Of a stretch of 64,000 nt of DNA, positions 14,009-64,000 are shown piece after piece; position 1 is the first letter of the stretch, and each line of letters starts with the position of its first letter. The position numbers and the translations under genes are program-made. The stretch spans positions 8,494,001-8,558,000 of the forward strand of contig NC_079886.1 of assembly GCF_029227915.1 (NCBI RefSeq). The letters are read 5' to 3'. The notes beneath the pieces were generated by a model, which searched no databases, had not been told where the DNA came from, and was given only the letters and a program-made list of their open reading frames with translations. Source of the DNA: Hydractinia symbiolongicarpus (taxonomy: Eukaryota > Cnidaria > Hydrozoa > Anthoathecata > Hydractiniidae).

Positions 14009-14690
14009 TTACACATATTCAGTATGGTTATTAACAATGGCAATGTTTTGCAATTCTATTGGTGGATCTGATGCTATGATGAACAGAAATACATAAATGC
14101 TACTTCTTAGTGGTTTGTTAAGAAAAACATAAATGAAAGGGTCTACAATACCACCAGAGATATATAGATTATCTGTAGAGAGGATGACGTAACCATCATA
14201 AACCTTCTTCCACAACAACAACGCTACTGCTAAATCCGGTAGAGCCGAAAATATAATGAAAGTGATAACAATAAAAAGGGTACCCAAAGGTGATTTTTGT
14301 CTTCACCTAATTCTATCGTTCTTAAATTCACATGTATGTCTCGTCGTCTTTTTAAATGCAAACAAATCGTTACGAAAACAGCGACAGGTGTTATAATATA
14401 AGCCCCATTCATAACTGCTTGTGTCAAAAAAAGCTTATAGAACACGGTATGAAGTAATTTCTTATTGTAAATATCTACAATACATATTGGTAACCCAGGA
14501 AGAGCACTGGTAATCCAAGCTACAGTCATAACTTTTACCAATCTTTTATTTGTAACAATGTATTTGTATTTGATGTGTAAATGAATGTAAAGAAAACGAT
14601 CTACTACAATTGTAAACATGACATAACAATTTAAATTCTCCTTGTATTCAATATAATTAAGGAGTCTTATCTATTGTGAAATAGCTTCCA
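14009..14690 (-). pseudogene. Class-A GPCR relic, 5'-truncated and frameshifted
   Basis: The minus-strand frame 14619-14230 begins at the end of helix 3 (MFTIVVDRFLYIHLHIKY, a DRF version of DRY). It continues through helix 4 (VMTVAWITSALPGLPICIV) and helix 5 (MNGAYIITPVAVFVTICL). Near 14275-14290 the frame shifts by one base. Helix 6 (GTLFIVITFIIFSALPDL) and helix 7 with DPFIY, a variant of NPxxY, continue to a stop at 14009. Upstream of helix 3 the frame is open only as far as a TAG near 14675; helices 1-2 are absent. It could be a live gene only if the frameshift is a sequencing error and earlier exons exist. A relic is more likely. Confidence 0.75.
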
Positions 14691-16257: not shown

Positions 16258-19200
16258 ATGTTCTTCTCTGGCATAATTTTCGTTTTCCTGTTCTTTGAGC
16301 AGCTCTTAGTAAGTTTTTTAAAGAATTTTTTTGTGTTTTGTTGAATCCTCTGTACCTCCACTACTCTGTATCTCAAACTTCTCCCTATCTCAAACAAAAC
16401 TCCCCGTCCTTTGGACATTTGTAATACTCTCCAAACTATTTTCCTCTCTTTATCTCGAACTTCGCCATCTCGATTTTTCTCCATCTCCATCAACCAAAAT
16501 CCTCGACCTTTTTTCGGATCTAAGGGTTTATCTCCCAAGTAAATAAAACAAAAAATCTTGTAAATCGAAAACTTGAATGCACCCAAAACATCCGAAATTT
16601 GAAATTTTGGTTACAAACAAGGAAAATAGCTTTTTCTTGGTAGATTGTCAAGAACGGTTATGTAAAAACAAGAGAATAAACACTGTCATGCAAATATATA
16701 TTACAGATTTTTATAAATATGTTTAACTTTATCTAAAGTAATATTTCATAAATATAAGGAAACGTAAAGTGTTATGCACCTTTGATAAACCTTTGATAAC
16801 CTCTCTTGCTTCAATAACAAAAATTTCCATTTGTATGAGCCATTGTTTTCGTCCCTTGCGAGTTCGATATAGAGAGAGTCCACTGTATACGTTTTCTTCT
16901 CAGTTTTCAATAATTTAAATATTGTTTAGTTTTCAATTCGCACTTTATTTTCTATAAATAAAATTAATTAAAATTTTCCGTACTTTTTTTCCGTACTGAA
17001 GAGTCAAATTCAGCAACCATCTTTTTTAATTAGCTCAATCAGCAATGAAATTTCATAATACATACATTTAATAACCTAAACAATTCATTTTTTTAGCTTT
17101 CTGGGGCCATAAACGGGCCCATCGGTTAGACACGGCATCATTGCCCTCTTGAAATGATCTTGCTTCACGAGGACGCAACTTTACATAACTTTTCGTGCGC
17201 CTTGTAAATATTCGCAAAAACAGAAGTTGTTTTCCGTGTTAATTTTGTGTTATTCATTTGACTTCTACCAAACTCAACACGACAATTATTTAACACTCGA
17301 GTTAGCATAAACAGTTTATATAAATTACACCATTCCAATATGGTATGTTGTTGTTGTTTTAAACACCGACAAATCTACGCCCTGTCAATTTTACGCCCTT
17401 CATTCTTTTATTCAAACTATTTAACGCCCTATATTCCTGTCACATTCAACTTGTCTCTACCATTGTATAGAAATATGAAGGAATTAACTATTAACTTTTA
17501 CTCTTCTAAATCAACTTTGGTTTTATTTTAGGTTGTGGTGTCAAATGTTGTATTTCAAAATTCTAACAGCGCACAGAGGTAATTTTTTTGTGCTAGTCGT
17601 TCGCTCGTGAAAATATTCACGGGTCTGCCGGTCCTCAGATTTTCGCCGTTATGATTTCCCGCATCGCTATTTTGTGCAACCATGCACGAATTGGCAATCG
17701 GTAACCATTTTAAACAAAATGGTTACCGATTGCCAATTCGTGCGACTATTATGGTATTAACGCTAAAAGGACCTATTGTTGAAAACAAGGGATAATAAGC
17801 GAAAAAAAGTGCGGGGAAAGGCCTTTAATTCACGGGCTTGAGGACACCAAAATACTGCTTGAAAAATTTGTTGATGAACTTTTATGGCGATCATGCAAAC
17901 TTGCAAATTAATTATGAAAATTCATTTTGCTTTTTTTTGCATGAAAAAATATAGATTTTCTTTTTTCTCTTTAAACAGGGTTCGAATTTATCGAATTTTG
18001 TGGTTATATTGATATTATCTTTCTTTTTGCCTTAATAATGCTAAAAAAAAACATATGATGAAAATGATATCAATGTGCAACTTTCCAGATAGATATTATC
18101 ACCCACCAATCCGAAGTTATCCAGAGTTTAAGTATTTTGGGGCAGGTGACAAATTTTATGGTTCGGTGACGAAAATTTTTATTGATGGATATGACAATAG
18201 AAACTTAATCTGCACCATGTTCGTCTTAGAATTTCCATATTAGGTTCTGAAAGAAAATCTAATAAAAATTCGTTCGGTTTAAATCCAAAAAAATCGTAAT
18301 CGTAAAAGTTGAGTAACTAAAACACCGATAACGAGATTTGGTTTAGCCTTGAGCGGTAAAAGTTATATTTTTCCTAGCAACGAGTAAACATGTCCAATTA
18401 TTAAAATTATATACTCATCTTTGTCCCACCATCGCAGCATGATATCCTCGTCAAATAAATTAAAGATAACGCTACTTTAATTTGATTCATTCAATCTTTT
18501 GTTTTAGCTGTGACGGATGCGGAGAAGATTTTGTGAAAAAATGGTATATTTGGTGAGTTACCGTTCTGTTGCATGGATAAAATGAACATCAGTTCAATTT
18601 TACGTTGTGCTCCGCACTGATGTTCATTTTTCCACTCGTTCTGACTTCACTTAGTTGAAAATCACTTCATCATTTATTTCTCCGAACCTGATAAAAGGTA
18701 AAATGGTGAAAAACAAATTTTGGACTAAGAAAATCGAAAAATTTAGATGTGTGAAATGATATTTCATAAAAGCATAAAAGGTTAAAAATATAACTTTTGT
18801 ACTGTTGATAAAGATACTTGAAGACAAATATTTTTGTCTGACTTTTTTTGACCACCTTAATAGTCACCATGACACCAGACCTGACGTCATACAAGAATGT
18901 TTCGACTGTCCTAAAGCTAATTATAAATGATGTAAGGTCGCCGTACATTAACCTCCGTAATTGTATGCTTTGGAAATTATTTATTATTTAGAGGGGTCTT
19001 TACAGCCCTCCATCAGGACAAATACAGTTAACCAAATAGGCTTAACCAGAAGTCTACAAGTCTAAGTCTCGCGCAGTCGAAGGAGTAAAAGCAATACTTT
19101 TCTGCAATTTTTATGTCCAAATAATGTGCATTTTTTTGTTATGTCCTCGTATTTTAAATCTTCTAGTTTTCGTTGAAATATAACTTTAAAAATGCAGAAT

Positions 19201-26927: not shown

Positions 26928-27283
26928 CTATAAATACATACATTTTAATGCTTTATGTTGCGAAGTGAAAACAGTCATTTAAGATCAGGATGAGAGAATA
27001 TGACAGATATTTTTGCATATAAAGTCAGCGAAAGTGTCTAGTAGGTTGTGTTGGTACATAATTGAATTTCCGCGCCCGAAGGCGTAGGAAATTCTTTAAA
27101 ACCGTCGTTTTTTTCTTTCGGAGCATTTTTCGAGAAAAAATCGACCCTGGGATTTCATGTTCCTCTGAGAGGAGGATAGTATTGGTATAACTGACGAACT
27201 AACTAACCCTGTCCCAAATGGTCAACTGCAACGTCACAGATTTAAACTTCGTACCCAAGCTTCTTAAGTACTGGGAATTCATC

Positions 27284-27800
27284 TAAATGACGTTTTAGGC
27301 CAAAATTGGTATTTGTTTTCGACAAAATTTGGCACAGTTAACCAAAAAAAGTATGCTGAACAAAATGGTGACATCATAATTTTAATTTTTTTCACCTAAA
27401 TGTCATTTTAAGCCAAAATTGGTCCAAAAATTAAAACTACTTTATTTTCAACAAAATTTGGCACAGTTAACAAATAAAGAATGCTGAACATGATGGTGAC
27501 ATCAAAATTTTGATTTCTTGCTACCTAAATGTTATTTTAGGCCAAAATTGGTCAAAAAATTAAAACTACTTTATTTTCAACAAAATTTGGCACAGTAAAG
27601 AAATAACGTATGCTGAACATGATGGTGAGATCAAAATTTTGATTTTTTGCCACGTTAAATGTCATTTCAGGCCAAAATTTGTCCAAAAATTAAAACTACT
27701 TTATTTTCGACAAAAATTTGCACAGTTAATAAAAAAAGTATGCTGAAAATGATGGTCACATCAAAATTGTGATTTTTTGTCAACTAAATGCCGTTTAAGA
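27284..27800 (+). repeat. Tandem repeat, about 129-bp period, four copies
   Basis: The motif TAAATG followed by GTCATTT-like sequence and GGCCAAAATTGG recurs at 27284, 27397, 27526, 27656 and, degenerate, 27785. Shared blocks include CAAAATTTGGCACAGT and TATGCTGAACA. The first unit is about 16 bp shorter. No CRISPR-like spacing. Confidence 0.85.
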
Positions 27801-27999
27801 CCATAAACGTTTCAATCGCAAGACTTTAAACCATGAATAATAGGCTGTATTTTTGTTAACAATTTCTTTTAAAATATGAGTTTATTATGACACGTTTCTT
27901 TTTGTTTGCGTTTGATGTAAGATATAATGTCACTTGTGTGCTTTATCTTCAGAGCTTCATGCACCAAACCTCTTCACGATAACACAACGAATTAGCAGG

Positions 28000-38873: not shown

Positions 38874-39473
38874 GAAGTATTTTTGCTTATTGCGTACTCT
38901 GGGAAGACAAAAGGTTTTTTCATATGGAACTCTACTACTTACGTTGGTTATGGCCTATTGACAGAAAAACATGTATTTCTTATATAACGATAGAGTAGAT
39001 TTCGGATAATAATGGATCACCTGTCGGGCCCATTGGTTGGAGTAATTCAATGAACGTGTTGCAGACTTTTTATGTTGGTAAGGTATGAAGCGGTGTTAAA
39101 TTATGTTGCACGTCATGTGTCGGGACAACTTAGCCCGGTGCTAAATGGAGTTGTTGCCCCTGATGACATTGGTATTTTCTATCACCAAGATATATACAGT
39201 AGACTCCCGGTTATTCGAAGCCTCAAGGGGGATAAGAATTTACTTCGAATAACCGGGTGTTCGAATAACTGAAAAATTCGTTTTCCCGCCAGATTTTCAA
39301 CTTAACCTTAATGGGATGGACTTTTCTTAAGTAATTGAGGCATTGTGGTTCAGTTGAGCGTGTAAACACAAAGAATTTTTACTTTTTGAAGAAAGAATAA
39401 ATTTGAACAAATTGTTAACAGGTTTTAAAATATGAAAGTTATAAAGAAAATGTATCTAGTAAATACAAGGAGT

Positions 39474-41048
39474 TCAACTCTTAAAAAAATCTTTAATGCT
39501 ACATTGTTTTTTACTATCGATGTAGTGTTTTTGACATGTACGTGTTATCATGTTTAACTGCTTTCTGATTTCAAGACCATTCTCGTCAAACAAAGACCAT
39601 CTTTCCAACAATTCTAAGGCCTCTTCCAACTCTGACTGCTTTGGCTTCTTCGGGGGGATGTCATGTGCCTCAATTTCATCATCATCGTCATCTTCGAGAT
39701 TCGGCGAGTTTTGATCTTTGTCCTCATTAAGTACGATTTCCACGATTTCCTCATCAGTCAATTCAATTGATTTACTCGTGCATACCTCAAAATCAATATC
39801 CACAAAATCATCTGCGTTAAAGATGTCGCCGTCAACTTCTCTTTTTTTCAACTCGCTTATGCTGTCAGAAAGAGATTTAAATGGGTCATCAGCATCATTG
39901 AGACTCGTGATCTGTGCTTCTTTTGAGATGCCTGCCTTCTTAAAGCAGTTTTTAACGGTGTCTTTTGAAACAGCGTCCCATGATTTGACCAAGATTTGCA
40001 TCCCTTCAAGAATGTTAATTTTAGGGACCTCTTTACCGCCGTCAATGAACTTTATTTGACGTTTCACAAGATTTGACCGGTAATATGCCTTCAATGCTCG
40101 GATTACACCTTGATCCATGGGCTGGGTCTTAGACGTTGTATTTGGTGGTAGAAAAACTAATTCTACTGCTTTAAGACCAGTGACTTCTGGATGAGCTGGG
40201 CAATTGTCAATTATCAAGACAATTTTTCGACCCGCAGTTTCAAATTTAACATCGAGTTTTTTCACATAATCGGTAAAGATTTCAGAATCCATCCAGGCCT
40301 TCTTTTGAGCTTTGTACTGACAGGGAAGACTTCTGACTCCTTTGAAACAGCGCGGTGTAACCGATTTTCCGATAACGAACATGGGCAACTTTTCACCTAG
40401 GGCATTTCCTGCTGCAAGTCCTGTTAAACGAACTTTGCTGAACTTTCCACCAGCACATCTTTCACCTTTGGCATGATAGGTATTTGTTGGAAGCATCTGG
40501 TAGAACAAGCCGAATTCATCAGCATTGAAAATGTCTTGTAAATCATAGCGTGACAAAATGGTTGGCAGGTGTGTTTCTTCCCAGCTTGCTGTCATCCCTG
40601 GTGTACAAGACTTTTCCTCTCCAGAAATAATTCTGTAAATGATGTTTTGCCTGTACTTCCATCTGTCTAGCCAGCCTTCTGAAGCTTTAAAATCAGGTTC
40701 GTTGAATTGCTTTGCAAAATCCAATGCTTTTTCTCGAATGATTTGACCACTAATCGGCACAGTTCTTTCACGAGCGTTAACGAACCACTTGTAAACTGCT
40801 TTATCAATGTTATCGTATTTTCCGGAAGAAAGCTTTTGTCTTTTAACTCCATACTGGCCTGATTCATACTTGGTAAAAATGTCACTTTTATTCTTAACCC
40901 AGTATGAAAGTGTGTTAGGTGGGACACCATACTTTTTAGCAATAGACTTTTTAGTTGTTCCTTCTTTTTCAAGCTCTTTCAAAGCAAGATATTTTTCTTT
41001 GATCGTCAGAACAGTTTTCTTCCTTGACGTTGTCTGAGCGGCTGCCAT
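39474..41048 (-). CDS. Tigger/pogo transposase 1, intact (524 aa)
   Basis: Cut-and-paste DDE transposase of transposon 1, made from one uninterrupted frame. The first helix-turn-helix (residues about 15-54, KKSIAKKYGVPPNTLSYW) and a CENP-B/Tc5-type second one ending GWLDRWKYRQN (about 80-140) bind the terminal repeats. The catalytic domain has Asp in IFNADEFGLF (about 177), VLIIDNCPAHPE (about 281) and TQPMDQGVIRALKAYYR (about 312), a DD30D spacing usual for Tigger/pogo. An acidic stretch near residues 425-470 precedes a C terminus reading QCSIKDFFKS, which fits the PCNA-binding PIP box (QxxIxxFF). The start ATG (MAAAQTTSRKK) is at 41048. No stop or frameshift; likely functional. Confidence 0.95.
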   Translation of the reverse strand: MAAAQTTSRKKTVLTIKEKYLALKELEKEGTTKKSIAKKYGVPPNTLSYWVKNKSDIFTKYESGQYGVKRQKLSSGKYDNIDKAVYKWFVNARERTVPISGQIIREKALDFAKQFNEPDFKASEGWLDRWKYRQNIIYRIISGEEKSCTPGMTASWEETHLPTILSRYDLQDIFNADEFGLFYQMLPTNTYHAKGERCAGGKFSKVRLTGLAAGNALGEKLPMFVIGKSVTPRCFKGVRSLPCQYKAQKKAWMDSEIFTDYVKKLDVKFETAGRKIVLIIDNCPAHPEVTGLKAVELVFLPPNTTSKTQPMDQGVIRALKAYYRSNLVKRQIKFIDGGKEVPKINILEGMQILVKSWDAVSKDTVKNCFKKAGISKEAQITSLNDADDPFKSLSDSISELKKREVDGDIFNADDFVDIDFEVCTSKSIELTDEEIVEIVLNEDKDQNSPNLEDDDDDEIEAHDIPPKKPKQSELEEALELLERWSLFDENGLEIRKQLNMITRTCQKHYIDSKKQCSIKDFFKS

Positions 41049-41276
41049 CTTTAATGTGGATTTGAAGAGCCTTTAAAAAGTTTGTTTACATCCACCCACT
41101 TGTTTTTTAATCGAGCTTTCGAAACGTTCGAAAATTAGATGAAACGTTTGAAAATCAAAGGAAACGTTCGAATTTTGAATGATCCTTTTAAAACGTTCGA
41201 ATGTTATAAAACGAAACGAAACAACACAACAACAAAGCAGTCACACCACAATTAGGACGAAGAAGTGAAAATTACA
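41049..41276. promoter_or_regulatory. Bidirectional intergenic region of transposon 1
   Basis: 228 bp between divergent ATGs. It contains repeated CGAAACGTTCGAAA-like words (41118-41132, 41141-41150, 41161-41173, 41192-41201), which may be binding sites. No TATA box is certain. Confidence 0.5.
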
Positions 41277-41699
41277 ATGGATCTTGTTTCAATGATAATC
41301 AACGAAACACAGCCGATAGAAATCATTCTTATCAAGTATTATGAGAGTAACTCAACCGTTATGGGATATCATGAGTATCAAAAGAAATGGAACGCTGTTA
41401 TTGGTGAAGTCCTAGAAGCTAAAATGGAACCTACAAACGACATAGACAAATATGCAGTGGCGGTCTGCAAAAAAGGAGATATTGTTGGTCATTTGCCTAA
41501 AGGAAAAACAGGAAAATTTGCCAAAACCATATTTTACTTTCTGAAGTCAGAGATGTTGTGTACTTGCAAAGTAAAAGTGACAGGGAAAAGAACTAACTTT
41601 GGAGATGATAAGGGATTGAGGATCCCCTGTTTGCTTCAATTCTCTGGACCGAAGGAGAATATTGAACTTTTGAAGAAATTGCTTGAAGAGTGTAAATAG
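41277..41699 (+). CDS. HIRAN-domain protein carried by transposon 1
   Basis: An intact frame of 140 codons from the ATG at 41277 (MDLVSMIINETQPIEIILIK). Residues about 27-95 carry the HIRAN pattern: GYHEYQKKWNAVIGE, then AKMEPTNDIDKYAVAV, then DIVGHLPKGKTGKFAK, followed by CKVKVTGKRTNFGDDKG. In HLTF and Rad5 this domain binds DNA 3' ends at stalled forks. Here it stands alone, without a helicase. It is transcribed away from the transposase; the 228 bp between the two start codons must hold both promoters. The gene lies inside the terminal repeats, so it moves with the element. The role (DNA-end binding, fork targeting, regulation) is inferred. Confidence 0.85.
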   Translation: MDLVSMIINETQPIEIILIKYYESNSTVMGYHEYQKKWNAVIGEVLEAKMEPTNDIDKYAVAVCKKGDIVGHLPKGKTGKFAKTIFYFLKSEMLCTCKVKVTGKRTNFGDDKGLRIPCLLQFSGPKENIELLKKLLEECK

Positions 41700-42163
41700 C
41701 CATGAATATTGAAACCTGATTTTTTGAAGAAAAAAAGTGTTTTAATCGCAGAAAATCAATGTTCTCACTCGACGATCTCCCAATAAGAAAAATTCGAATA
41801 ACCGAGGGTGACTTAGCCTATAATTGACCCCAAGGGGAATAAAAATTACTTCGAATAACCGAATTATTCGAATAACTGAAGTTCGAATAACCGAGAGTGT
41901 TTTTGCCTGAGTTGGGTAAGCAGATCCAAGGGGAACGCCATCTCACTTCGAATAACCGAATTATTCGAATAAGTGCAGGTTCAAATAACCGGGAGTCTAC
42001 TGTATATGTGGTCAACTGTCATAACCGAGAGGTAAAGCGTCGTTCCCGTCATCACTCCTAATTATTTGAACAAAATAAAGTCAAATAAAATCTTTCCTTT
42101 CCTTAACGAAAAAAATACTTATTTTGATCAGGCTTTTCGGAATGATTTGTGACTATAAATAAT

Positions 42164-42306
42164 AGTCGTTAGCCCGTGGAAAAATCCACGGTTTCGCCCG
42201 TCCTTTTTATACCGCATTGCGTGCGTCTCGCTACCTGCGCAGCTAAGCTACCATTTTGCGTGACAGACAGACGTACGGACAAACGTATACGGTATTATAA
42301 TATAGA
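42164..42306 (-). mobile_element. Helitron-type non-autonomous unit between the Tigger elements
   Basis: On the minus strand it begins TCTATATTATAATACCG at 42306. It ends with GGACGGGCGAAACC, the hairpin CCGTGGATTTTTCCACGG and GCTAACGACTAT at about 42164. CTAT replaces the CTAG of the 19.3-19.7 kb copies. Confidence 0.65.
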
Positions 42307-42615
42307 TAAAAAATTTAATAATGTATGCTCATAAATACCACGTCATATCATAAGTACAGTGGAATCCCCCTAAAGCGGACACCCTATAAAGCGGACAGCC
42401 CTCTAAAGCGGACAAAAATTTTTGCACCGGCAGAATTTAGGTCAAACTCTCATAAAAAAATCTCTATAAAGCGGACGATTATAAAGCGGACACTCTATAA
42501 AGCGGACAAAAATCTTTGCACCAAATGACAGTTTCCCTTATAAACACTCCCTATAAAACGGACAATGGAAAAATAACGAGATGAAATGTCACTTTTTCTT
42601 AAAATTTAAACCATT

Positions 42616-43137
42616 TTACTTAGTACATCTTTGAGTTTTGTTATTTACCGAGTCCAACACTTTCCTTATATTTTTCTCGGCCCACTCAACTGCCTTTTCA
42701 ACACCAATTAATTGGTACTGGGCAGGAATTTCTAGTCCGTAGCCAGCACCACGGTTCACTCGCTTCCCAGTCACTTTACATCCGATGGTACAGTTAGGAA
42801 GCGACATGAATTTGTTGAATAGTTTGCTAAGGTTTTTAGGGACGTGCCCAACTACTTTATCGTCATCTGTAACAGCTACAGCAAACTTGTCATGTTCGTT
42901 ATCTTCTTCCGCTTTTAAACAAAAATTCTCTTCTCCGACTTTTGGGCTCCATATGTCCATGTAAGCATGGTATCCACGGATAAACGAGTCGAAGCGATAT
43001 TCTTTCTGTTTTATAAGGATAATCTCAATCTGTTGGTCAATGTTTTTGAGAAGCATCTCATTTAGTTGAACGTTCGACATATCTGTGTTCTCTTCAGCTT
43101 CTTTAACTTTAAAATAGCATTCGAATCGTGAAGACAT
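42616..43137 (-). CDS. HIRAN-domain protein carried by transposon 2
   Basis: An intact minus-strand frame. The open frame reaches 43194, but the ATG at 43137 (MSSRFECYFKVKE) or 43080 (MSNVQLNEMLLKN) fits better with the partner in transposon 1. It has the same order of motifs: QQIEIILIKQKEYRFDS, GYHAYMDIWSPKVGE, AEEDNEHDKFAVAV, KVVGHVPKNLSKLFNK, CKVTGKRVNRGAGYGLEIP. The shared EIILIK, GYHxYxxxW, DKxAVAV, VxGHxPK and VTGKR blocks show homology with the transposon 1 protein despite strong divergence. No helicase, nuclease or RING part is attached. Only 62 bp separates this start from the transposase ATG. Confidence 0.85.
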   Translation of the reverse strand: MSSRFECYFKVKEAEENTDMSNVQLNEMLLKNIDQQIEIILIKQKEYRFDSFIRGYHAYMDIWSPKVGEENFCLKAEEDNEHDKFAVAVTDDDKVVGHVPKNLSKLFNKFMSLPNCTIGCKVTGKRVNRGAGYGLEIPAQYQLIGVEKAVEWAEKNIRKVLDSVNNKTQRCTK

Positions 43138-43199
43138 TGCAGCGTAAAATTTTAAACTGGAAAGAATTTCGAATTTTGAATTTCTAATGCACATTCAAC
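43138..43199. promoter_or_regulatory. Very short head-to-head promoter region of transposon 2
   Basis: 62 bp between the preferred HIRAN ATG and the transposase ATG. If the HIRAN start is 43194, only 5 bp remain. Promoters must overlap coding sequence or lie inside the genes. Confidence 0.4.
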
Positions 43200-44807
43200 A
43201 TGGCAATGTCGAAGCAGCAGCTTGCTGGTAAACTAGCGAAGAAAACTTTATCATTAGATGATAAGATCAAGTTTTTGGATTTCGCCAAAAAAAATCCAAA
43301 ACTTGGATGTAGAAAACTAGCAGACATTTACAAGATTGGAAAGACAGCCGCAGCAAATATTTTAAGAGACGAAAAGAAAATTCGTGAACAACATGAAATT
43401 TTTCGTGAGAAAACAAAAAAACGTAACCGCCATGGCAAGTATCACAAGATAAATGAGATCTTATTCGAATGGTACAAAAGATGTTGCGCTTCTAACATCT
43501 ACCCTAATGGTGTAATGCTTAAAGAGGAGGCGTTGGAAATTAAGGAAAAACTTCAGAACAGCGATTTTGATAATTTCTCCGCCTCTGACGGTTGGTTGGA
43601 TCGTTGGAAAACAACATATTCCGTCAAAGAACGTCGTATTGTTGGTGAAGCTGGTGACGTTTCTACAGAAACGGTTACTTCCTGGATGGAGAGGATCAAA
43701 GAATTGGTTGAAGGTTATTCACTAGAAAATATTTGGAACATGGACGAGTCTGGCTGTTTTTTTAAAGCTCTACCGGCCAAAGGGTTAGTGGAAAAAGGAA
43801 AACAAGCAAAAGGTGGGAAAAAGTCAAAGCTTAGATTAACTGTCGCTTTTTTTGTAAATGCAGCTGGGGAAAAGATCGACCAGCCTGTTGTTATCTGGAA
43901 GAGTAAAGTCCCGCGTTGTTTTAAAAAATTGAAAGATCCATCGCGTCCAGCTAACGTTCACTACTTTTCAAATCCTAAATCTTGGATGACATCTCAAGTA
44001 ATGGAAACTGTACTGGCACGTTTTAACAGAAAACTTTTATTTGAGGACAGAAAAGTTATTCTTTTTCTGGACAACGCCACCTGTCATCCGGAGTCAATGA
44101 TAGGCCAGTTTTCACAAATCAAAATCATTTTCTTACCGAAGAACACAACTTCAAGGCTTCAACCACTCGATGCGGGGATCATCCAAAACTTCAAGGTGAA
44201 GTACAGAAAAAGACTGGTCAAATACGTGCTTGCAAGGATCCAGGAGAATAAATCTGCAACTGAAATTATCAAGAGCGTAGACATACTTATGGCTATTCAA
44301 TGGGTTCAAGATGCGTGGAAAGAAGTAACCAACTTGACCATCAAAAATTGTTTCGAGAAATGTGGCGTAGTTCAAGGAGAAAGTGAATTGATGGAAGATC
44401 AAGAAGATGACTTAGAATTTGAAGCTCTGGTGAAGGAATTAACTGAAGATATGTCTGCTGCAGAATACATCGATTTTGACGCCGATGTTCCAGCTTCGGA
44501 GCCAAGAATTAACGAATTAGAAATAAATTGGCGACATCAAATCCGAGAAGCTAGCATTAACGCAATTGAAAATCCAGAGATGGCATGTCAGGTCGAAGAG
44601 ATTTCCGAGGATGATGATGAGAGTGAAGACGTGGTTGAAGAAGAAATGCTTGGTTTCACCGAGCTAATCACTATGCTTGATAAAATTAAGCGATCTACTA
44701 TTTTTGATGATACATGCCAAGAAATGTTGTCAACCATTACGAAAAAGATTGAGGAACTTCAGCTTCAAAATAGAAAACAATCCTCAATCAAAGATTATTT
44801 CAAATAG
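43200..44807 (+). CDS. Tigger/pogo transposase 2, intact (535 aa)
   Basis: DDE transposase of transposon 2 in one frame, starting MAMSKQQLAGKLAKK. The N-terminal helix-turn-helix spans about residues 15-60 (CRKLADIYKIGKTAAANIL). The second DNA-binding unit ends GWLDRWKTTYSVKERR (about 131-146). Catalytic Asp residues are in IWNMDESGCFF (about 182), VILFLDNATCHPE (about 291) and RLQPLDAGIIQNFKVKYR (about 324), a DD32D spacing. An acidic region (EDDDESEDVVEEEM) is followed by coiled sequence and a C-terminal QSSIKDYFK, which fits the PIP box (QxxIxxYF). Sequence and terminal repeats differ clearly from transposon 1, so this is a separate lineage. No inactivating mutation was seen. Confidence 0.95.
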   Translation: MAMSKQQLAGKLAKKTLSLDDKIKFLDFAKKNPKLGCRKLADIYKIGKTAAANILRDEKKIREQHEIFREKTKKRNRHGKYHKINEILFEWYKRCCASNIYPNGVMLKEEALEIKEKLQNSDFDNFSASDGWLDRWKTTYSVKERRIVGEAGDVSTETVTSWMERIKELVEGYSLENIWNMDESGCFFKALPAKGLVEKGKQAKGGKKSKLRLTVAFFVNAAGEKIDQPVVIWKSKVPRCFKKLKDPSRPANVHYFSNPKSWMTSQVMETVLARFNRKLLFEDRKVILFLDNATCHPESMIGQFSQIKIIFLPKNTTSRLQPLDAGIIQNFKVKYRKRLVKYVLARIQENKSATEIIKSVDILMAIQWVQDAWKEVTNLTIKNCFEKCGVVQGESELMEDQEDDLEFEALVKELTEDMSAAEYIDFDADVPASEPRINELEINWRHQIREASINAIENPEMACQVEEISEDDDESEDVVEEEMLGFTELITMLDKIKRSTIFDDTCQEMLSTITKKIEELQLQNRKQSSIKDYFK

Positions 44808-45102
44808 GGAGAAAAACGTGTATTGAAAGACCTATAAGATAAATGAAATATATCTTCGTAATATAACTTGGTTTCTTAGTTTATAACCTTAGCAACACTT
44901 AAAGGTTGGTTGCAACACCGACAAATTTGAGCTGCTAAACTTACTTTACACAGCCAACTTGGGTTCTTTGCTCGATAAGCTAAATCTATTGATGTTGCCG
45001 TCTACCCTAGTGTTGCAAGTCACCCCATGATACCCGCCAGTACTACAAAAAAAGCTTTTTTGGTCAAAATTAGGTCTAAAACTAATTTTTTGGTCAACTT
45101 CC
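44808..45102. other. 3' non-coding part of transposon 2
   Basis: Between the transposase stop and the right subterminal repeats. It holds the transcript end; no other ORF. Confidence 0.5.
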
Positions 45103-45309
45103 TATAAAGCGGACATCCCTCTAAAGCGGACACTTTTTTTTGCACCAATGGTGTCCGCTTTAGAGGGATTCCACTGTAATAATATTATTTAAATAATTTA
45201 TAAAATGTTTTATGGACAAGAATTTGGCCGATACGAACTAGCCAACATCTTACCAACTATATATGACATGCTAGCATGTTCATACGGGTTCAAGGGACTT
45301 ACCATTTGG

Positions 45310-45700
45310 CGTGACAACTTTTAAGTTATCTGTGAATAGGCGGCCACAGAGGTTGAACTTTCTTGCTTAACCAGAATCGAGACCTGATAGTATCCTGATT
45401 TTGTTTTCGTTTTTAAACTTCCTTTTGTTTTTGTTAGACTTTATCGTCCACTTCTTTACACATAAAGACTAGAATTTTTATGAAGGCATCTGAATGATGT
45501 TGTCGTGAAAACACGGCAAACACCCAATAATACTAGTCCTTAATTCTCATCTTGTTAATAGGTTTTTTAAGGTCTTTTCGTGATAAGGTAGGGTGGGGTA
45601 CACGTCTATTATTTCTTGTAAATTATTTTTTGTAAACATATTCCAATAACATGTTATCACGAAGTTCTTAAGGCTTTTCTCACCGTTATGTTTGTCCACA
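45310..45700 (+). repeat. Direct repeat flank, copy 1
   Basis: Matches 50455-50880 in the same orientation through TGTGAATAGGC / TGTGAACAGGC, AAGGCATCTG, ATGATGTTGTCGTGAA, TTAATTCTCATCTT, AATAGGTTTTTTAAGG and TAGGGTGGGGTACACGTCTA. It lies just outside the left long inverted repeat. Confidence 0.8.
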
Positions 45701-46945
45701 GGCATGCGGAATGGTTCGTAGTCGTGCGTGTATAACTAAGATGCGAATGTGAAATAATGTCAAAGGGAATAATTGATTTTGAGCGTTATTATTAGAGGAT
45801 TATCCGATACCTATAACAGCTGACATGTGCATTAATGTCATCTTATAAATTTAGTGTGGTTACGCTAAGTTGCAATCCACAGACCAAATAAATCTTTGCG
45901 TACAAACTTAACTTCTTCCTTCGAAACCTTCTTACTGTCACCAACGCTAAATGTGAGAGTTTAATTCTCTTTAAGCACGTCAATTCAAAGCGCACGCAAG
46001 ACGGTGCTTAATATTGTGGAACATTTAGAAGCGCTGTTACCCTGCGCTGTTTGTTTTAAAAGTAAAGTCTTTTCGAAATTTTCATAAGCGGTAAAAGCAC
46101 TATAGAATATAGCAAACCACCATTACGAGTTTGTGTGCGTATTTCTGTTTCCAGTGGACATTGTGTAGCGCGTATGTACGACCACAAAGCGCTAAGTACG
46201 ACGGTCTTTACGATCTAAGTAGACTTTCGCTTTAAGTAGCAGCGTTTCTCACAATGTTTCATGATAGCTCGTCATGTAAAAAACGCGCAAAAAGCGATTG
46301 CGACGTTCAGAAAACGGCAAAACAAATATGGTTATCTTCGAACAGCAAAAAATTGCGAAGCTGATAAAAAAACAGGCCGCGGGAAATTGTCAAAATGCCA
46401 TTGAACACACAAAAAGCATTACAAGCATTTTGTTAAATTTTATTAAAGTTTTTTGTAAACAGTATATAAAGTGCTTTACTGATGGTAAACTACATTATAT
46501 ATTACAGTTGCTACAATCACAAAGCTAAAACAAAATGCAAAAGATCACTTAAAAAGACATAATAAACCAGATTAACAAATGTAAGAAGAAGAACTAAGAA
46601 CAAGAAAGAGATAATATAAAGTAAAATGACATATAAAATATAAACTATTAATTAGATATCCACATTATAACTACAAGTAACTCACATGCACACACACATC
46701 TACACACTGGACACTATAAACGTCAACTTAACAACCTTACAAATATATAAGACAGAAGTCTCTAATGGACAATTAAACAAACAATTAAAAAAATAGAATA
46801 GTGCACTGCGACATCACAACATAGGAACTAATGCACTCATGAACACTTTCTGCATACACTTGTACTAAAATACTTAACAACATAAAAATAGAATAATCAA
46901 GGTATAAACACATTAAGACCAGCTAAGACACTACGCACGCATATA

Positions 46946-50454: not shown

Positions 50455-50880
50455 ACTTCATTTCTTAGTGTGATAATTTTTAAGTTTTTTGTGAACAGGC
50501 AACAGAAGCTTGACTTTTCCGGCTAAGCTAAAGTTGAGTTCTGATATTACAATTATGTTAATAAAGTAGCTCTTTTTCTTTGCTTTTAAAACTTCCTTGG
50601 GTTTTTGTAAGTTTTTACCGGCCAACTTTTTTGAACATGGAGAATTTATATAAAGGCATCTGTATGATGTTGTCGTGAAGAAGCGGAAAATCCCCGACGA
50701 CGTCATATTTTCTTTTTCAATAATTCTAGTCTTTAATTCTCATCTTATTAATAGGTTTTTTAAGGTCTTTTCGTGATAAAGGTAGGGTGGGGTACACGTC
50801 TATATTTTCTTTGTAAATTATGGTTGTAAATAATTCCAATATCATTTAATCACGAATTTTTTATGGCCTTCCTGACAGTT
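50455..50880 (+). repeat. Direct repeat flank, copy 2
   Basis: Second copy of the segment at 45310-45700, here located inside and next to the right long inverted repeat. Confidence 0.8.
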
Positions 50881-51777
50881 AAGTCTGTCCTCGTGTGTCA
50901 CAAGGAAAAGCTTGTAACTGTGGTACAGATGAGAAACGTCGCTTTCGCAATCGATTTTTTATATGACGAGCTTTTATCAAACTTTAACTACAGAAAAGGC
51001 TGCTGTAGTCAACCTCCGGCAATGTGTCATACTGCCTCTATTAAGGCTAAAGTACACTCGCAAAACACGTTTGCGCTTTTCAGTCATACGTCCAAACGAC
51101 ACAATGTCCGCTGGAAACAGAAATATAAACACGAAATCAAAATGGTGGTGATGCAAGCAAATTTAGTGGTCAAGATCATGAAAATGCATTGCTATTTTCT
51201 GCAGTACTTTTATCGCTCATAAAAATTTCAAAATAATTTTACTTCTAAAACAAACAACAACGCAGGTTAATAACACTTCTAAATATTCCGCAATAATGAA
51301 CGCTGTCTTGCGTGCGGTTTAAATTGACGTGCTTAAAGAGAATTAAACTCTCACACTTAGCGTTGGTGATAGTAAGAAGGTTTTGAAGAATGAGGTTAAG
51401 TTTGTACGCTAATATTTGTTAGGTCTGTGGGTTGTAACTCGGCGCAACCGTACTATACTTTAACAATATAATATTGAAAGCAATAAACAATTGAGTATTT
51501 GTAAAAAGATAATTTAAGCTTAGAGACAGCATGGTTATCGCGGTCAATGAATTATACATTATGATATAACATGTCGCGTGAGCTGAATAACTAATAGCTG
51601 TGCGATTAAGTTAACTTGTTAGAAAAATTTAAATATGAATGGCTAGCTGGAAAAAAAAGTTAAATTTAACAATTTTAAGCGAAGTGAAAAAATAAGAAAA
51701 AAAACAAGGTTGATAGAGATTAGGTTGAAAATGATGTTTTGTTTTAAAATACGTTATTTAAGGATTTGTTTGGAAAA

Positions 51778-61756: not shown

Positions 61757-64000
61757 TTATTTCGGTACAGCACTTAGAATAGCTGTTACTTCTTCAGCAA
61801 CTGCAGTCAGTGCGAATTCAAACTGGCCCTAAAACAAAGAAAGAATTTACGTTCTAAGAGAATTCATTAAAACAGGTAAAAAGATAGGATAGGTAAGATG
61901 CAGACTACTACATAACGACGTATTACCTATCCAATTGGTGCAGTATCTACAGAGCTAGTGCTAACTGACTTAAACTGTGCATCAAACAACTAGCTAATAC
62001 AGTTTACGCAATTACTATTTGCTATCTCTTTTTTAAAGACCTATACAGTGGAATCTCTCTATCTCGACTACTCTCTATCTCGAATTTCCCTCTATCTCGA
62101 GCTATCTTGGTCCTTTTGTGGTCCGCCTAAGGTGTTTTCCTTTCTTTATCTTGAACTTTCTCTATCTCAAACAAATTTTTTGGTTCCTTGCGAGTTCGAG
62201 AAAGAGAGATTCCTTTGTATTTCTATTTTTCCTGTGTGTTTTTAAGAATAATACGGGGCTTATATTTCTGTTATCCAAGAAGAAGGAAAAGAATGCTGAA
62301 TCATGACTTTAAATTTCAAATGTCGCAGTAATTCAAAACAAAATTCAATCTGACGCAGATTTGACAATATAACCTTCTCAAGTATATTTACGCATATGGA
62401 ATATTCTTCTTACCTTAGTTTTCACCATATCAGGTCTTTGGTCTCTTAAATGCTCCAGTGTGGCAGCCATATCAATTTCTTTCGTGCCTAAAACAACATG
62501 GACACAACCACGTAAATAAAAACGATGATTGTCACGTCAGTTTGTCAAATATAGTGGAAACATACCCTTAATCATTTTATTCAAGACCATATCAAGAAGA
62601 ATGTATGTTCCTGTCCTTCCGACACCATTATTGCAATGAACAATTATAGGACAGGCATTTCCACGATAGCATTTGTTAACTTTCCTAACAAAAAAATTAG
62701 AATTGTAAATAAAAACTACATGAAAAATAATACATTGAATAGAAAGATTTCGTCAAATTCAAAAACAGAACAATGAATCCTAAAAAACACATACTGATTT
62801 TGAAATTTTGTTTTTAGGTAGTAATTCTTATAAACAAAAAATACCATCAAATTAGTTCCTACGAAATAATTTGATTGTATTTCCTCAGCTTCATCAAATA
62901 CCTCCCAAATGAGTGTCCCTTGCGATCACTTTTTATTAAAAAAACGCCCCTTTTTGAAAATTTAACAAAATATTACATACCTTCTAAATTCCAGTAATGG
63001 CTTTGTGGAGTTTGGGACATCTAGATCAGGCCATGCAAGAAAGTGAAATTGAGTGATTGTCCGTGTTTCACCAGTCTACAAAAGTAGAAGTAACAGATAA
63101 AAACAACAACTAAGAAACCATAATACACCATCGCAAGAAGGAAGAGAAAATGAAAAAATATATGCGGCAAAAAGTCAAATAAACGGATGGAAAAACAGTT
63201 AATAAAGGAAACACATACCTGAAGATTTTTTAAATATAAACTTCGGACTAAATAATCATCGCACCAAATGTGTTCAGAAATCAGATGAACCTACAAAAAG
63301 TTTTTGTATTAGTTCTAGTACACTCTGTATTATTAACAAAGTACCACAAAGAAATAAAATGTTTTTTAACATGCAATGGTCTCTTCTTTTTATAACAGTT
63401 TTATTAAAAACATTTTTTTCGGGGAAAAATAATGCATACACTTTTTTAAAAAAGAAATGATTTTTTGCACTTCGCCCCAAACATTGTTAAACTACTTAGG
63501 GAAAAACGCCATAAAATATTGTTTAGTTATCATTTACCAGGTATTTTGAGCCAAAAGTGTTTAAAGTCACAACATTAAAGTTAGCAAATTATTATTCATT
63601 CAAAGGAAACCTACTCAATTTAGCCCCACCCCCTCCCCCCAAATTCTTAAAGCATCATGGAGAACTGCTTATTTATGGTAAGGATTGTGCAGAAGACTTC
63701 AAACATTTCAAGCAAATAGTCCTATTTTTGACTATTCATCCGAATTGTTTAGCAATTGAGTAAAATTTCGGCATTTTTTAGGACCATTTTTTAAATTTAG
63801 CATTGTGTTTAAAAAAATTGTATTGAATTAAAGTTGTCTAATCATACCTCGTATATGTGATAAACTTCACTTCCATCTTCTGGCCAGTAACGATGACATT
63901 GTGGCTTAAAAGAACACGAGGTTCATAATTATGACATAATTATAAACGGAGCTACACAATATTTAGCGGTTCTACACTTACCAGTCCCAAATCTGATAAT
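61757..64000 (-). CDS. PTPRN-like: PTPRN/IA-2-like receptor phosphatase, C-terminal exons
   Basis: Seven minus-strand exons: 64000-63982 (partial), 63904-63848, 63290-63219, 63075-62981, 62684-62566, 62487-62414, 61828-61757, phases consistent. They encode the C-terminal two thirds of the phosphatase domain of IA-2/phogrin, transmembrane proteins of dense-core secretory vesicles. Markers of the family are [83 protein letters not shown] and the end [20 protein letters not shown]. The P-loop is [10 protein letters not shown] and the WPD loop keeps Asp (WPDLDVP). Vertebrate IA-2 has lost that Asp and has Asp in the P-loop, and is inactive. The upstream part, with ectodomain and membrane helix, lies right of base 64000. 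AATAAA for this strand is near 61736-61731. Confidence 0.95.
62046..62217. mobile_element. Short Tigger-type MITE (172 bp)
   Basis: Starts CAGTGGAATCTCTCTATCTC after TA, ends GAGAGATTCCTTTG before TA. Subterminal repeats of CTATCTCGAA occur at both ends. It lies in the intron between the last two PTPRN-like exon blocks (61829-62413). Confidence 0.75.

Follow-up and report, generated by a model that had tools for sequence, protein, structure and literature searches.

The window analysed here, a 64,000-nt stretch of the Hydractinia symbiolongicarpus genome (contig NC_079886.1, positions 8,494,001–8,558,000), contains two complete pogo/Tigger-type DNA transposons, each of which carries, besides its transposase gene, a second gene encoding a small HIRAN-domain protein. 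Element A occupies positions 39197–42002 of the window (2806 bp) and element B positions 42357–45176 (2820 bp), with a gap of 354 bp between them, as the first-pass annotation of this DNA had placed them. Both are bounded by terminal inverted repeats (TIRs), the first 30 bases of the opposite ends matching at 25/30 positions in A and 27/30 in B, and both are flanked by TA (39195–39196 and 42003–42004 for A; 42355–42356 and 45177–45178 for B). Transposase A (524 residues) is encoded on the reverse strand at 39474–41048 and transposase B (535 residues) on the forward strand at 43200–44807. In each element the HIRAN open reading frame (ORF) lies on the opposite strand, head-to-head with the transposase gene: HIRAN-A at 41277–41699 on the forward strand (140 residues from the first ATG, in a frame open from a GTG at 41265), and HIRAN-B at 42616–43194 on the reverse strand (192 residues, with Met39 or Met47 as alternative possible starts). 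The iteron-rich end lies beyond the HIRAN gene in both elements. Allowing up to one mismatch, A has nine TTCGAATAAC matches at 41793–41989 on the HIRAN side and three at 39210–39269 on the transposase side, and B has seven TAAAGCGGACA matches at 42371–42564 and three at 45105–45162 respectively. No further transposase or HIRAN remnant was detected in the rest of the window (E<1).

Both transposases exceeded the Pfam cutoffs for HTH_Tnp_Tc5 and DDE_1. A CENP-B_N domain was matched in transposase A (E=1.6e-11); for transposase B none was listed at E≤10. The aspartate triads, D177/D281/D312 in A (DD30D) and D182/D291/D324 in B (DD32D), have spacings inside the range of 29–36 residues described between the last two aspartates of Tigger transposases (PMC7386202). 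With their TA duplication and short TIRs opening CAGT, A and B thus conform to the pogo/Tigger type, Tigger itself being described as polyphyletic (PMC7325037). What sets them apart is the near-constant second gene, as such elements are usually described with a single transposase ORF: Tigger has been described with one ORF of about 492 residues (PMC9219625), the DNA transposon families of S. rosetta with one gene each (PMC6875170), and the related and active pogo element Passer with a single ORF (PMC9976928). The first-pass annotation had called A and B unrelated-looking. Their iterons do differ in sequence, but the description was overstated: the transposases are homologous (29% identity, E=2e-58) and, by an eye count, A and B have the same base at 10 of the 12 outermost TIR positions, so that by these comparisons they are diverged members of one group.

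The second ORFs were identified by several routes. HIRAN-B matched the Pfam HIRAN family (PF08797) at E=2.5e-8, with 34.1 bits against a cutoff of 24.7, and HIRAN-A fell just below that cutoff (23.0 bits, E=6.9e-5); the two proteins are 41% identical to each other (E=1e-23). An independent HIRAN profile made from 18 sequences (17 from phage or viral contigs and one bacterial), with both window proteins left out, gave 3e-12 for HIRAN-B, 2.7e-9 for HIRAN-A (search space 1000) and 3e-13 for HLTF. The HIRAN fold was found for the core of HIRAN-B, which was the part modelled, and HIRAN-A is tied to B by the 41% identity. The proposal that these ORFs are HIRAN proteins was borne out by the Pfam match of HIRAN-B, the independent profile and the fold; a fold search rejecting HIRAN, which the first-pass annotation had named as a refutation, was thus not the outcome. 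Among the sequence blocks reported as common to the two proteins, EIILIK, GYHxYxxxW, DKxAVAV and VTGKR are present as described, and the remaining one reads VGHxPK rather than VxGHxPK. Compared with the HIRAN domains of HLTF and Rad5 (~19% identity when structurally aligned), the transposon proteins differ in standing alone, without SNF2 or RING domains. The HIRANs of phages and bacteria are likewise small stand-alone proteins, with an EPxNxxD signature. Many phage contigs (viral contigs L010–L030) encode small HIRAN proteins of this kind, and in most of these GY replaces the GH of HLTF and of the transposon proteins.

The genome (480.9 Mb in 76 contigs) was searched with HIRAN-B and transposase B; the best 150 of 780 HIRAN-B candidates and the best 81 of 944 transposase B candidates (83 rows) were scored, and the counts that follow are lower bounds. 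Among the HIRAN-B matches listed, at least 25 with 98–100% identity covered the whole protein or all but one residue, and 24 of these 25 were stop-free; at least 15 listed transposase B rows were full length at 99–100%, 11 of the 15 being stop-free. Twenty B copies were fetched, and all had TA at both matched ends. Fourteen gave a single unbroken alignment over the whole of B, and identity was 98.9–99.7% in the best piece of each of the 20. These copies were the top HIRAN matches, so that the rate of open HIRAN frames among them is biased. The B family is probably young and recently active, as judged from these copies. A host HIRAN gene with a transposon landed beside it was considered and rejected, as the fetched B copies have HIRAN inside the transposon ends and the same pairing is met repeatedly.

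Pairing was anchored on the transposase, which introduces no bias toward HIRAN, after the 83 rows had been merged into 77 loci. A HIRAN match lay within 3 kb at 54 of the 77 listed loci, antisense to and 5′ of the transposase match in all 54, against a chance expectation of ~0.0019 matches per locus. By group, pairing was seen at 27/29 B loci, 6/12 loci of kin at 50–84% identity, 21/35 loci of a 31–36% group and 0/1 for a locus at 40%. The HIRAN list held the best 150 matches only, and for this reason 1.1 kb of 5′ flank was read at 16 of the 23 unpaired loci. HIRAN was present in 14 of them, always antisense, stop-free over the matched stretch in 11 and 85–100% identical to HIRAN-A in ten; the two 1.1 kb flanks without HIRAN belonged to a 73% relative of B and to the 40% locus. 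The seven unread loci are fragments without the N-terminal part of the transposase and with no listed HIRAN row within 3 kb. In total, HIRAN accompanied 68 of the 77 listed transposase loci (68/70 without the seven 5′-truncated fragments), antisense and on the 5′ side in 68/68, a count that takes in partial HIRANs such as the one at C8:2879125, which covers residues 1–52 only and adjoins a full transposase. These pogo/Tigger-type transposons carry HIRAN constitutively, as a second gene. Because it adjoins most of the related transposase genes found in the genome, it seems to work as part of the transposon rather than to have been picked up by chance, as the first-pass annotation had argued; the finding which that annotation had named as fatal, namely that most related copies lack the ORF, is the reverse of what the listed loci show. 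Taken together, sequence, fold and copies make it close to certain that these are two-gene transposons with a stand-alone HIRAN protein as the second product.

Six further HIRAN loci were fetched with 5 kb (L059–L064), and four of them lay between matching TIRs with transposase sequence. L063 and L064 are 2.8–2.9 kb long, with the TIR CAGTCGACGCTC(G/A)TTATCTCGAAC and TA on both sides, and show a second layout. Their transposase match is broken at residue 132/133, with HIRAN antisense within the gap; the break starts with GTAAGA and finishes with TTTCTATTTCAG, and the joined reading, KWKKR-HNVTF, lines up with RWKYRQNIIYR of transposase A. In these elements HIRAN thus appears to sit within an intron of the transposase gene, an intron that would be spliced out. 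Both copies also have a frame change further along the transposase. L061, with the TIR CAGTAGAGTCTCCATAACTCGAAC, has the GT donor and HIRAN at the same positions as L063 and L064, and no match to transposase residues 134–258. Among the 21 loci of the 31–36% group that are paired, 14 have HIRAN at a distance of 179 bp from a transposase match beginning at residue 139, a spacing that fits the intron-nested layout. The fourth locus, L059 (2045–3047, on C7), is B-like and measures 1.0 kb between and including its TIRs. Its HIRAN frame is open and shares 69% identity with that of B, and of the transposase only some 30 C-terminal residues are left, which makes it a HIRAN-carrying deletion derivative. 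Counted by TIR, the families with a HIRAN gene number at least four, namely A, B, L061 and L063/L064, with L059 as a B-like fifth.

Of the other two loci, L060 (2145–2786, on C10) has a 214-codon HIRAN frame, possibly an orphan, a domesticated copy or a remnant. L062 (C8:8523862) is, together with about 20 similar rows, a repeated HIRAN piece corresponding to query residues 88–192 at about 43% identity; pieces of this type mostly share the same TAG and are perhaps a non-autonomous family.

Codon-position analysis of A against B gave agreements of.52,.60 and.34 at positions 1, 2 and 3 for HIRAN and of.43,.59 and.32 for the transposase, compared with ~.28,.29 and.26 for shuffled pairings. A frame fossil was rejected by this test. 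The proportions of nonsynonymous (pN) and synonymous (pS) differences were 0.188 and 0.861 for HIRAN-B and L059, 0.317 and 0.838 for HIRAN-A and L063, and 0.279 and 0.816 for the transposases of A and L063. Synonymous sites are saturated in between-family pairs, which leaves the exact ratio of nonsynonymous to synonymous rates (dN/dS) undefined; the four divergent HIRAN pairs for which it could be calculated gave 0.20–0.38, the bootstraps being set aside as finite in 12 and 35 of 500 replicates. A ratio of 1.03 for the HIRANs of L063 and L064 came from very few changes. Between families, HIRAN and transposase change mainly at synonymous sites, indicating that the protein is constrained. The first-pass annotation had held that a dN/dS near 1 among copies would refute its reading; between families such a value is contradicted (pS far above pN), and the young B family gives a less decided answer.

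Within B, 21 copies carried 15 nonsynonymous and seven synonymous single-step variants (pN/pS 0.53, p=0.18). Near-neutral variants with no significant constraint are as expected of recent copies; the corresponding transposase ratio was not used, as deleted or rearranged copies were misaligned. This counts against the explanation favoured here. So does the pairing viewed from the HIRAN side, which is weaker: a listed transposase row lay within 3 kb for 54 of the 150 HIRAN matches listed, divided into 27/37 at 85% identity or more, 5/19 at 50–84% and 22/94 below 50%. In addition, two of the six fetched HIRAN loci, L060 and L062, had no transposase within 5 kb at E≤1e-3. HIRANs without a nearby transposase and near-neutral variants within B are what passive cargo, carried along by chance, would produce. 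That explanation is already contradicted by the constancy of pairing, strand and side and by the excess of synonymous over nonsynonymous change between families, and we consider it very improbable.

The HIRAN and transposase identities (in that order) were 52/60% for A and L063, 50/41% for A and L061, and 41/29% for A and B. They rise and fall roughly together, which favours one acquisition followed by joint descent. The earlier suggestion of independent gains in two unrelated lineages accordingly found no support in that form, one old gain being likelier, and two independent captures, although possible, were dropped for the same reason. The joint divergence supports, with good confidence on our part, a history in which HIRAN joined the transposon lineage once, long ago, and was kept by selection with the transposase.

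With the gene starts head-to-head, one divergent promoter could serve both genes in A and in B. The divergent region between the genes of A (41118–41201) contains four TTCGAA sites, a number found in 0/5815 control windows of the same length, and two such sites lie near the gene starts of B (43120–43173; 0/5826 control windows with two). A 14-mer, TTCGAATTTTGAAT, is common to the divergent regions of A and B (43120–43181 in B), and 4/2902 control pairs share a word this long. TTCGAA is also the core of the A iterons, and the B iterons are without it. The sites and the 14-mer were noticed post hoc and the control windows overlap; the TTCGAA region of A is a possible candidate for a shared promoter/operator, and the sites of both elements and the 14-mer are given as leads only. 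These clusters, together with the antisense orientation of HIRAN in all 68 paired loci and, in some families, its placement within what looks like an intron of the transposase gene, would be in keeping with a mainly regulatory role, in which the HIRAN protein or antisense transcription sets the transposase level. Antisense or promoter effects alone leave the protein-level constraint unexplained, and the post hoc discovery of TTCGAA and its absence from the B iterons weaken the case further. We regard such a role as improbable.

Clues to what a stand-alone HIRAN protein might do come from HLTF. The HIRAN cavity of HLTF takes one single-stranded dinucleotide (PMC4666394), and HLTF strips Cas9 from cut DNA via HIRAN and the released 3′ end (PMC11237066). 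The isolated HLTF HIRAN (1–180) inhibits Cas9 removal and resection, and the N90A-N91A mutant does so far more weakly (PMC11237066). In its manner of working, this fragment is comparable with the transposon protein as an isolated HIRAN able to occupy a freed 3′ end; it differs in being an experimental fragment rather than an element-encoded protein with a putative inhibitory function. By shape and analogy, we infer that the transposon HIRAN may be a 3′-end capper and a natural HLTF competitor. Cleavage by the transposase would leave the excised transposon and the broken donor site with short 3′ overhangs that end in a free 3′-OH, which the transposon HIRAN protein would grip. A host HLTF/Rad5-type translocase would find such ends through its own HIRAN; with access blocked, it could neither dismantle the post-cleavage complex nor open the break to resection. 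The outcome would be that more cut transposons insert, or that repair of the donor site more often leaves a copy in place. To the idea that HIRAN caps the 3′ ends left by the transposase and keeps host HLTF off the cut complex we assign a little less than an even chance.

The HLTF pocket residues Asn91 and Asp94 are retained in the transposon proteins. Several points speak against capping: HLTF Asn90 is replaced by Asp or Thr and Tyr93 by His or Ile, the position of Tyr72 is Ala or Glu (in a by-eye alignment), and the overhang precedent, a 3-base 3′ overhang on the strand transferred by the Mos1 mariner transposase (PMC4505599), is from Tc1/mariner and not from pogo. The pogo element Passer has been described with footprints of 0–4 bp (PMC9976928). 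A broader proposal is that at least four diverged families of one pogo/Tigger-type lineage share an element-borne anti-HLTF factor. It would be the end-recognition domain of HLTF in stand-alone form, and would shield cut 3′ ends from the complex-stripping repair translocase of the host. Its gene would shift within the element (head-to-head or intron-nested antisense) and would sometimes persist after loss of the transposase, in derivatives with internal deletions between intact TIRs. We put this forward tentatively, as rather unlikely in its full extent.

HIRAN could instead be a direct transposition cofactor without any anti-HLTF role, a protein that would contact the transposase, the terminal iterons or the cleaved ends and without which assembly, import into the nucleus or strand transfer would fail. 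The constant pairing and joint constraint agree with this, and there is a precedent in PIF/Harbinger, a two-gene DNA transposon type in which a DDE transposase and a second element-encoded protein are both required and ORF1 binds the TIRs and the transposase (PMC2836001). ORF1 of PIF/Harbinger is, however, Myb-like and its transposase has no obvious DNA-binding domain, whereas the partner here is HIRAN and transposases A and B retain their own helix-turn-helix domains, so that end recognition needs no partner; Passer, moreover, is active with its single ORF (PMC9976928). A cofactor role appears unlikely, if less so than regulation. It is also conceivable that HIRAN has a targeting function and leads the cut transposon, or the transposase, to forks or to newly made 3′ ends, so that transposition keeps time with replication and copy number rises. 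The HIRANs of HLTF and Rad5 are established to act at forks (PMC4666394), but at forks HLTF depends on ATPase and RING domains, both of which are missing from the transposon proteins. We consider fork targeting quite improbable.

The constitutive presence of HIRAN in pogo/Tigger-type transposons is real, conserved and without precedent in the literature searched. Among the papers listed, none dealt by title or abstract opening with HIRAN in pogo/Tigger elements, a scope outside which Repbase and subscription papers may hold an unremarked annotation, and the word HIRAN is absent from the relevant parts of PMC7325037 and PMC7386202. Pogo-group cut-and-paste transposons are usually taken to need the transposase only. 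A conserved second gene resembling a host repair domain would mean that some transposons manage the fate of their own breaks, and the HIRAN protein would give a defined handle on the competition between host repair and transposon at 3′ ends; it might also be a useful helper for transposon or nickase tools. For B the question is directly testable, because both ORFs of the window copy are open and the best pieces of its 20 fetched relatives are 98.9–99.7% identical.

Elsewhere in the window, the ends of a third Tigger-like family were recognized at 62046–62240 (~190 bp), with the TIR CAGTGGAATCTCTCTATCTCGA and TATCTCGA iterons, and a second place near 16878–16887 has one clear end only. Additional repeat pairs are located at 27278–27806 and at 45399–46115 versus 50574–51455. 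A fragment at 14233–14670 on the reverse strand has a weak match to a rhodopsin-family receptor (7tm_1, E=6e-5, under the cutoff).
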